This document shows positions 35,601 through 39,845 of a DNA stretch of 64,000 nucleotides, piece by piece (within the stretch, counting starts at the first letter, position 1; each line of letters begins with the position of its first letter). Below the pieces are notes generated by a model, which saw only the letters and a list, made by a program, of their open reading frames with translations, was not told the origin of the DNA and ran no database searches. Origin of the DNA: Hypomesus transpacificus (Eukaryota; Chordata; Actinopteri; Osmeriformes; Osmeridae); contig NC_061077.1 of the NCBI RefSeq assembly GCF_021917145.1, forward strand, positions 11,682,858 to 11,746,857, read 5' to 3'. Made by a program: the position numbers and the translations under genes.

Positions 35601-38600
35601 GGATGGGGGAGGGAGGGAAAGAAGGACTATCGAGAAAGCACTCCAGTCTTTCCTTCTCTCTTTCCTGCCAGTCCCCTCCCCCGCCCCCCCCCCCCACACA
35701 CACACGCACACGCTCCGTAACAGCAGGGTGATGCATGGCTACTGGGAGCCTTGAGGTCCTGACTGTGTTAACCTGCATGGCTTGATGAACTGCTGCTTCA
35801 CACCCCACCCATCATACTCCACCGCTCAGGCCCCCTCAGGGGTCAACCCTGCCGGACTAGCATGCTGCTTCTGAAGAGGGAGTGTGGAGTGTGTCGTAGA
35901 GAGCACAAGCACCCGCTAAAGTATGTTTTGTAAGATGTATGCTTGAGGTAGAAGGAATAAGGGGAAAGCTGAAGTTGGTAACCAACCAGTGGAGGAGAAA
36001 GGTAAGTATTGAGCCAGGGAGGGAGATGCAGTCGCTCACGTTGTAGTCATATAAAGTCAGATTAACTCAGGTTGGAATTTTGTTTAAGTTCACATTCTCA
36101 GCTGATTTTGCGGAAAAGGATTTGCCAGGTCACATGTTGGGAGTTAGTTCAGTGTTGTGTCGCTGTGATGGTTTTAGATTTGAGGTTTTATGGTAATCAC
36201 GCACCACTGAGACACCTGCTGGACAGAGGCGGTATTACCTACATTAATAGACGAGTACATTAATATGTAGGACAGAAATATCTTATTGTAGTTCAGTTAG
36301 TAAAAACAGATCTAAAGGTGTTTGATGGCAGTTTGTTACTAAGCATGAGCAGATCTGGAGCAGTGAGGAGGGAGAGGACAGATGACAGCAATTTGTTGTT
36401 TTCATATTATTTAACTTTATTCTTTTATTTGTTTTTTGGTCTTCTGCGTTTAAAGTAAAATTTCAATCAAGGCCACACATATAAAATATTTCATAAATGC
36501 ATGATTACTGAGAATACATTTTTATATACTCATAGTACTCCTCTACACACCTGATTTCCATCCTGAATTAATAGATAAATAATGATAATAATAATATAAA
36601 TAAGATATTAATAATAATGATAATTTGCACAAATAACATAGATAAACGCATCCAACTGACAGTCAAGTAAAGTAATTAAGAAGAAGTTAAGAAATCAAGT
36701 AGGTCATCTTTTTATTGTGTTTATAGTCCATGCAGTGTTGTCATGTCATGTTGCCTTCTACGTTATATTATTATTTATGTTCTGTATGCTTTCAGTTTGT
36801 ATGCTTTAAGCTGCTGTCTCTCCCTCTCTCCTCCTGTGTTGTGTGGGCGAGTGAGTGTGTGTGTGTGTGTGTTGTCTGTGTACTTGGCCCTGCAGTGTGT
36901 TCAGTAACAGGTGTGTGTTGCAGGATTGTTTTGGGCATCATCACTAAGAAGAATATCTTAGAGCACCTGGAAGAGCTCAAGCACCACGTGGAGCCCCTGG
37001 TGACTAGCCCCGCCCCCCTGACCTCCGACCCCCTTTCCACCTGTAGGCCCCGTCACTAAGGAGGGACGCATGAAACTTGTGTGTAAATGACTGACAGTTC
37101 CCTTTGACCAATAGGAGCCTGCCTTTTTTTTCTACTCTGTTTCACTCACACACTTTGCAGTGGAGCTGTTTGGTTTGTGTTTACCACCCTGTATTGCCTA
37201 GAAAAACACCAGTGTGAATCTCCACTTATCACTGGTTACCGATTATACCTGACTTCAGTTGTAAGATCGATGTATTTCCAAGCTCTGTCAGCATCCCTGA
37301 CTGACATTGGTCTTTTATTTGAACTCTCTCAGCATACTCAATTGGTATTGGTCGCCTTTTTAAAATTGTCAGTTTACTTGATTGCTATTGGCCCTGTAAT
37401 ACCGGATCTAAGTGGGAACTGTCGCTTAAAGCCTGAGTAGACTAGCTTCACTGTAGCCTCCCATCCATACCGACTAGAGCTTCCTTTAGCAGTGTTCATC
37501 ACTTCCTGTTTACATGTTTACTTAAAAAAACAGTATTACAGTAGATAGACAGCATGAATACAAATATATAATATGTATATTTATAATACCGTCGTTTTTT
37601 TTATACTCTTGACTAACGCACAGAGTCTTGTATTCCGACAGACGTGTAGTCATGTCTCTGGTTGTAGAATTAATCTGTGTGTGTTCGTGTCATCTTCTGA
37701 ATCCCATACCTACCACACACAAGTCATGTCACCCTTAAAGAAAACATCAAAGAAGACATTCACTTTTGGACCTCGATGAACTAACTGTTTTTCCCCCCCC
37801 CCTCCTTTTTTCATTTGTTTTTGTTTTTGAACTCCCTTCCTTATTCCCTTCCTTCCTCCCTCTCTCGCCTGGGTCTCCGTCCGGCAGATCGATGACATCT
37901 GACCCGACGCTGCATAGCACCGGCGCCCTAACCACTTGGCGAGTAACCGCCTTGGGGAAGCGGATTTCTACTCTTGGTGTTATATTTTTTTGGGGGGGGG
38001 GGGTGGGGAGATCACTGGGGGGGGGGGGGGGTTGGGGAAGAAGACAGTTCCATCCCTCATCCACCCCCCCCTCCTCCCCACCCCTGCGTAGTGAGAGAGT
38101 GAACTGTAGTGTTGTTGTGGGTGATGATGATGATTCTAGCAGTCATAGGAGGCTAATGGGCCAGCCCATCTGTGTGGGGGTGATCGTGGCAGTAAACAAA
38201 CAACCCAATCCCTGCCCCTCTCCTGATTCTCCACCCACCGTCCCGCCCCCCACCTTGACCTCACCTGACCCCACCCCATCTCTGCTGCGCTGTTTTCGGC
38301 AGCGTTTCATGTCTCCCAAGTTACCATAGCGACTGTAGCGACTTCTTTTCTAAGAGGTGCCCTCATTTCCCGCACTTCTCTCCTCCATTTCAGACCTGAG
38401 TCACAACAGCAGTGTTTCTGTTCTGTCAAACCCTGCAGGGGGGGGGGTGTTTTGATTTGGTTTGCCTTGGAACCAACCGACGCAACTTACTGCTGTGTCG
38501 CAAAGTCCGGCAAACCTGGAAAGCTGAATCGAGCACACCCCCCCTAAACCCAGATGTTTGTGGGGGAACAGACAGCGTTTGGGTCCCAGGTCTGGACTGT

Positions 38601-39768: not shown

Positions 39769-39845
39769 TCCCCTCCTTCCAGGACTGCCCGGGGGACGAG
39801 AGCGAGGAGGAGGTGGTGCGCCTGCTGGACGGCCCCGACCTCTGA
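39678..39845 (+). CDS. clcn3: CLCN3 last exon, dual reading frames
   Basis: After direct splicing from exon 13 the exon reads [17 protein letters not shown] and ends DPASIMFN, stop at 39766-39768 (isoform A). After inclusion of the 76-bp exon it reads, one base earlier, [20 protein letters not shown], then a basic-proline stretch, VQL, and an acidic tail with EEEVVRLL, ending GPDL with stop at 39843-39845 (55 codons, isoform B). Both frames match known vertebrate ClC-3 C-termini, so the first 91 bases are truly dual-coding. EEVVRLL fits an acidic dileucine signal. Confidence 0.9.

Follow-up and report, generated by a model that had tools for sequence, protein, structure and literature searches.

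The CLCN3 gene of Hypomesus transpacificus very probably carries the fish form of the ClC-3A/ClC-3B splice switch, with constraint on both reading frames of a 91-bp overlap in the last exon and with a cassette exon that arose by duplication of the start of that last exon. The window, i.e., the whole stretch of 64,000 nucleotides that we analysed, corresponds to C18:11682858-11746857 in a genome of 437 Mb, and CLCN3 is encoded on its + strand. As ClC-3A and ClC-3B are known in human and dog, the splice event itself is not new.

A splice switch at the 3' end of CLCN3

Thirteen upstream coding pieces on the + strand were delimited by hand, with joins in frame at GT/AG sites: 20676-20838, 30239-30399, 30875-30974, 31370-31557, 31828-31950, 32161-32367, 32903-32983, 33219-33471, 33798-34093, 34216-34402, 34561-34778, 34931-35111 and 35247-35463. 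The products comprise 821 residues for the A form and 872 for the B form. The A protein matched ClC-3 of the PDB (entry 8jev, taken as mammalian) with 1732 bits over residues 1-821, end to end and including the N-terminus, and the next-best PDB matches were a CBS fragment of ClC-5 (282 bits) and ClC-7 (249 bits). ClC-4 was absent among the 57 PDB sequences listed for this protein. From the end-to-end match including the N-terminus, we consider the gene an orthologue of CLCN3 (ClC-3). A possible alternative first coding exon (26078-26168, +) joins position 30239 in frame, and its peptide is similar to the N-terminus of mammalian ClC-3c; N-terminal splice variants of CLCN3 may therefore also be shared with mammals. 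One of the introns harbours a repeat with a period of ~91 bp (32600-32900), seen as translations starting at 32606, 32697 and 32788.

The exon preceding the switch (35247-35463, +) codes for the larger, first part of the CBS2 domain and ends in phase 2 (..AAC GG), with the donor gtgagg. It is followed by a 76-bp cassette exon (36924-36999, +; acceptor ttgcag, donor gtgact) that completes CBS2 and leaves phase 0, and by the last exon, which begins at 39678 (acceptor ccctgcag). With the cassette skipped, the last exon yields the ClC-3A end, which stops at TAG 39766-39768 and whose residues after the switch point are identical to PDB ClC-3 at 27 of 29 positions. As the length of the cassette (76 bp) is not divisible by three, its inclusion causes the last exon to be read in the other frame, giving a ClC-3B-type tail with its stop at TGA 39843-39845. 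The first 91 bp of the last exon (39678-39768, +) are thus dual-coding, with the A frame starting at 39679 and the B frame at 39678, and the following segment (39769-39845, +) is coding in the B form and 3'UTR in the A form. The tail after the cassette comprises 55 residues, basic and proline-rich first and acidic later. The phase switch by a 76-bp exon and the reading of 91 bases in both frames had been proposed in an earlier note made from the sequence of this DNA; our checks of the splice sites, frames and both stops confirmed them, with coordinates exact to the base. With both stops located in the last exon, neither mRNA should be a target of NMD. Both are presumably made in this fish. The 1460-nt intron before the cassette contains three TGCATG motifs (at 35732, 35774 and 36498), which are possible RBFOX sites. 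There is none in the intron after the cassette, and the + strand of the 64-kb window contains 32.

Both exons complete the same domain. The Pfam CBS score was 56.7 bits with the A end and 47.1 bits with the B end, versus 29.6 bits for a protein cut at the switch point. According to the earlier note, the first strand of CBS2 was encoded twice. As worked out from the Pfam match, the exchanged part covers approximately positions 41-56 of the 57-position profile, and the part encoded twice is instead the end of the domain. A PDB search with the B end retrieved four distinct sequences, whose alignments stop by residue 91 of 152, leaving the B tail unmatched. Skipping of the 76-nt exon would keep the last exon in its ancestral frame after the upstream exon, with the short A end. 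Inclusion would swap the last strand-helix piece of CBS2 for a duplicated version of the same piece, after which the last exon would be read in the other frame to give the 55-residue tail. The latter might change the sorting of the transporter, as proposed for mammals.

Conservation of the second reading frame

The B frame is read one base ahead of the A frame, such that third codon positions of A are first positions of B and almost every change that is silent in A alters B. Conversely, a conserved A protein on its own imposes some likeness between B peptides, and a null distribution was therefore needed. To this end, 20,000 random synonymous recodings of the fish A tail were generated, and the B peptide of each was compared with that of another vertebrate. 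For the first comparison we used an assumed human B tail. The fish B frame was identical to it at 20 of 30 positions, for a null mean of 12.8 (P 1e-4 with the codon usage of the gene, 0.0014 with uniform usage and 0.0004 with a GC3 of 0.70). The A tail of PDB ClC-3 and this assumed B tail can be jointly encoded by six DNA sequences only, which argues that the assumed tail is right.

A scan of prokaryote contigs with an A-frame pattern gave a single match, which lies terminally in a bacterial MAG contig (L001, CANBFZ010000011.1, uncultured Eubacterium), and scans of viral contigs for the A-tail and cassette patterns gave zero matches. Bases 1-126 of L001 look like a last exon of vertebrate CLCN3 when taken from the minus strand. 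They lie at one end of a chimeric contig and apparently represent host DNA contamination joined to bacterial DNA. The A tail of L001 has the same 29 residues as PDB ClC-3, and its B frame reads TPPWHYNKKRYPPSYGPDGKPRPRFNNVQLSPVDEDREETEE. This DNA differs from the deduced human DNA at 2 of 88 positions, and the fish DNA departs from it at 14 of 91. Between the B frame of the fish and the L001 B peptide, 21 of 30 residues are identical, with a BLOSUM score of 133, which makes the fish sequence a B tail of the vertebrate type. Both fish tails are of the mammalian kind; the earlier note had likened them to known vertebrate ones. Under gene codon usage, the null means were 11.7 identities and a BLOSUM score of 65.2, and none of the 20,000 recodings reached either observed value. 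With uniform usage, the means were 11.7 and 53.4, and the P values 1e-4 and 5e-5, respectively. A conditional test for conservative B changes, at the codons that differ between the fish and the deduced human DNA, gave P values of 0.16 (gene usage) and 0.05 (uniform usage). Beyond the A stop, where the A protein imposes nothing, the fish B tail resembled the 12 available residues of L001 with P 0.048 by shuffles; among 4703 open stretches in the window, 0.45% scored at least as high against L001. The same part of the tail compared with the assumed human tail gave P 0.0004.

The genome itself provides controls, in the form of two further matches to the A tail, on C12 (86%) and C20 (76%). We provisionally labelled these paralogues clcn4-like and clcn5-like; their tails are identical to that of PDB ClC-5 at 24 and 25 of 29 positions, and to that of PDB ClC-3 at 25 and 22 of 29. 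The last introns are 354 nt long in clcn4-like and 93 nt in clcn5-like, and no cassette-like sequence was found in 9.9 kb at each paralogue, last introns included. The best other scores of a 17-residue cassette segment at these loci were 19 and 18, whereas the A tails of the two paralogues scored 50 and 52. The second frames of both paralogues are free of stops over the overlap but spell other peptides, with 10 and 9 of 30 residues identical to L001, close to the 10.9 and 9.8 expected on average under the null (P for identity with gene usage, 0.79 and 0.77; range of P for the identity and BLOSUM measures, 0.14 to 0.79). At A residues shared with L001, Met excluded, the same codon is used at 17 of 25 positions in clcn3 but at 6 of 23 and 6 of 22 in the paralogues (Fisher P 0.0009). 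The paralogue and orthologue splits differ in age, and both are probably old enough for silent sites to be saturated.

Two other properties of the overlap were set aside as evidence. Openness of the second frame was rejected, since it is also open in both paralogues, for 38 and 99 codons before a stop, and therefore proves nothing by itself. Furthermore, 67% of the synonymous recodings of the A tail kept the B frame open with gene codon usage (24% with uniform usage), and at the same frame offset 53% of the 30-codon windows and 26% of the 56-codon windows in the rest of the gene are open. What carries information is the identity of the amino acids encoded in the second frame. The low GC3 of the overlap (20/29, P 0.007 under gene usage) is a weak argument as well, as 6.7% of the 29-codon windows elsewhere in the gene have a GC3 as low or lower, and the exon at 32903-32983 has a GC3 of 0.59, below that of the overlap. 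In favour of a retained B frame, on the other hand, the codons for the LGIITKK segment end in G or C in six of seven cases in the cassette exon, which is usual for the gene, and in one of seven in the dual-coding exon.

Altogether, the comparison of the overlap, for which two vertebrate DNA sequences were used, supports the view that the B frame is more conserved than the A protein and codon usage predict, and the paralogue control agrees with it. The earlier note had reasoned that both tails resemble known ones, so that selection must have held the two frames. Resemblance alone does not suffice for that step, since the A protein by itself yields about 12 of 30 identities, but the excess of the B frame over the recoding null and over the paralogues upholds the constraint. 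The likeness of the tails beyond the A stop lends moderate support to selection acting on the B protein.

Constraint on silent sites might also come from RNA signals, such as exonic splicing enhancers or silencers of a regulated last exon, with the B peptide as a by-product. The paralogues devoid of the cassette cannot separate the two possibilities, since they lack the B tail and the regulated splicing alike, and the three RBFOX-like TGCATG motifs in the upstream intron make regulation plausible. Two vertebrate DNA sequences were compared and the conditional test on conservative B changes was non-significant, so that B-protein and RNA-signal constraint are incompletely separated. We nevertheless consider RNA signals an unlikely explanation, because the residues past the A stop still resemble a vertebrate B tail, albeit weakly with L001 alone, and because protein-level work on mammalian ClC-3B is cited in PMC7940362. 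It is much less probable still that the cassette is dormant in this fish and that the B frame is retained merely by slow divergence. The donor gtgact and a GT-rich tract before the acceptor look weak by eye, and the PDZ and PPxY motifs have not been kept (see below). However, the frame, length and splice-site dinucleotides of the cassette are intact, 23 of its 25 residues are identical to those assumed for the human exon, and the near-random codons of the paralogue overlaps imply that such slowness would be peculiar to clcn3.

Origin of the cassette exon

The peptides encoded by the cassette and by the start of the last exon are identical at 10 of 25 positions, including LGIITKK in a row, and none of 100,000 shuffles reached their score. 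Over 17 residues, the BLOSUM score between the two is 51, as it is for the cassette and the A-type end of ClC-5, whereas scores elsewhere in the protein do not exceed 14 and those of the ClC-7 and ClC-6 ends are 22 and 25. The cassette thus resembles its neighbour far beyond chance and beyond the CBS ends of ClC-6 and ClC-7. At the nucleotide level, 38 of 76 positions are identical, and the same codon is used at 3 of the 10 common residues, for 6.5 expected. Such a loss of likeness at silent sites is what an old copy, or codons fixed by a second frame, would be expected to show.

The cassette might alternatively have been recruited from some other sequence, its likeness to the last exon being due to the demands of the CBS2 end. 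Both pieces have to be compatible with one fold and with one and the same beginning of CBS2, a G-I-T pattern is common to other CBS ends, and no trace of copying remains at silent sites. Against this, seven identical residues in a row, the same entry phase and the same upstream neighbour, together with CBS2 ends in ClC-6 and ClC-7 that score half as high, make recruitment quite unlikely in our opinion. Duplication of the start of the last exon, as put forward in the earlier note, is hence supported by the sequence identity, the shuffles and the lower scores of ClC-6 and ClC-7.

Since the A-type end is also present in PDB ClC-5 and in both fish paralogues, it is probably the ancestral form, with the cassette as its copy. 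The cassette peptide matches the last exon of clcn3, that of clcn4-like and that of clcn5-like about equally well (10, 9 and 11 identical residues of 25, respectively), and the cassette may therefore predate the split of the three genes and have been lost twice, or be younger and fast-evolving. In a search of the whole genome with the cassette peptide, the window alone was found among the matches listed; since the A tails of the paralogues were not among them either, a diverged copy could escape such a search.

A copy of the start of the last exon, placed upstream, would have taken over the coding of the end of CBS2. With this end supplied by the copy, a second frame could come into use in the original last exon while the domain remained intact. 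Fish and tetrapods diverged over 400 million years ago. For the broader scenario in which the second frame was born by exon duplication and both frames have been held since before that split, while the partners of the tail changed (PDZ, PPxY), we would judge the chances to be even.

Tail motifs and relation to known systems

The human ClC-3B tail has a class I PDZ ligand (TTL) at its end and contains a PPAY (PPxY) motif. The fish B tail is of this human type, with 80 residues from the switch point compared with 77, but it has neither motif. Its end (DGPDL) does not fit the class I, II or III PDZ patterns, and PPSH is found in lieu of PPxY. We regard the switch as orthologous by its anatomy, but do not class the fish tail as PDZ-binding. 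In both the fish and the human tail, ExxxLL comes after an acidic stretch. We note this motif without counting it as evidence, since it is present in 7% (fish) and 17% (human) of shuffled tails. Any ancestral role of the tail would, as a guess, more likely lie in sorting by the acidic/di-leucine end than in PDZ binding.

The name ClC-3b is also in use for other constructs, which presumably carry the A-type end. These are NM_001829.4 in PMC13406507 and the form of Guzman 2015 in PMC9198718, going by the available parts of both papers. ClC-3B is covered in a review (PMC7940362, in the part available), which cites Ogura 2002 and Gentzsch 2003. In dog lung, RT-PCR revealed that an alternative exon 12 gives rise to shorter and longer CLCN3 mRNAs, said to be as in human in the accessible text of PMC1413550. 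The mammalian ClC-3A/ClC-3B pair in that text thus shares with the fish the same gene, an alternative exon just before the last one and a longer second isoform (791 and 838 aa in dog). We infer that the fish cassette represents the same 76-nt event as the dog and human alternative exon.

Frameshifting penultimate exons have been described more generally (PMC7392665, available part). As in the fish gene, a non-triplet exon lets translation run beyond the usual stop in the last exon, giving a longer, proline-containing tail without NMD. Unlike in fish CLCN3, where inclusion gives the long tail, that study counts skipping of the penultimate exon, and the fish cassette differs from the exons described in the same text in that it replaces a lost domain end. 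The extended frames of U2af26, the model gene of that work, are reported there to lack overall sequence conservation, whereas the second frame of the fish gene is conserved. Dual-coding isoforms generated by non-triplet splicing in C. elegans follow the same logic in worm genes, and in the accessible part of that study their wobble positions are reported to be significantly more conserved than single-coding ones (PMC13247117). CLCN3 or Clcn is not mentioned in the main text of PMC13247117. In the open PMC literature, we found neither the tail peptides nor, among the matches listed and the passages searched, two-frame constraint with a paralogue control or an origin by duplication.

The locus would represent a clean case of a coding exon that acquired a second constrained frame without losing its first protein, of relevance for overlapping genes, and with paralogues in the same genome as built-in controls. 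Variants that are silent in ClC-3A are predicted to be able to change ClC-3B, which bears on CLCN3 variants in neurodevelopmental disease.

The window contains other coding features outside CLCN3. A long open frame at 9215-10468 (-) matches the Pfam Glyco_transf_49 domain. Exons of a carbon-nitrogen hydrolase, which we take to be NIT1-like, are found at 14398-15854 (+), with the Pfam CN_hydrolase profile applied to the 15558-15854 segment. Downstream of CLCN3, an open frame at 45392-46504 (-) has an I-set Ig domain match and is possibly MFAP3L-like, and the segment at 61188-61742 (+), presumably INO80B-like, has matches to PAPA-1 and a HIT zinc finger.
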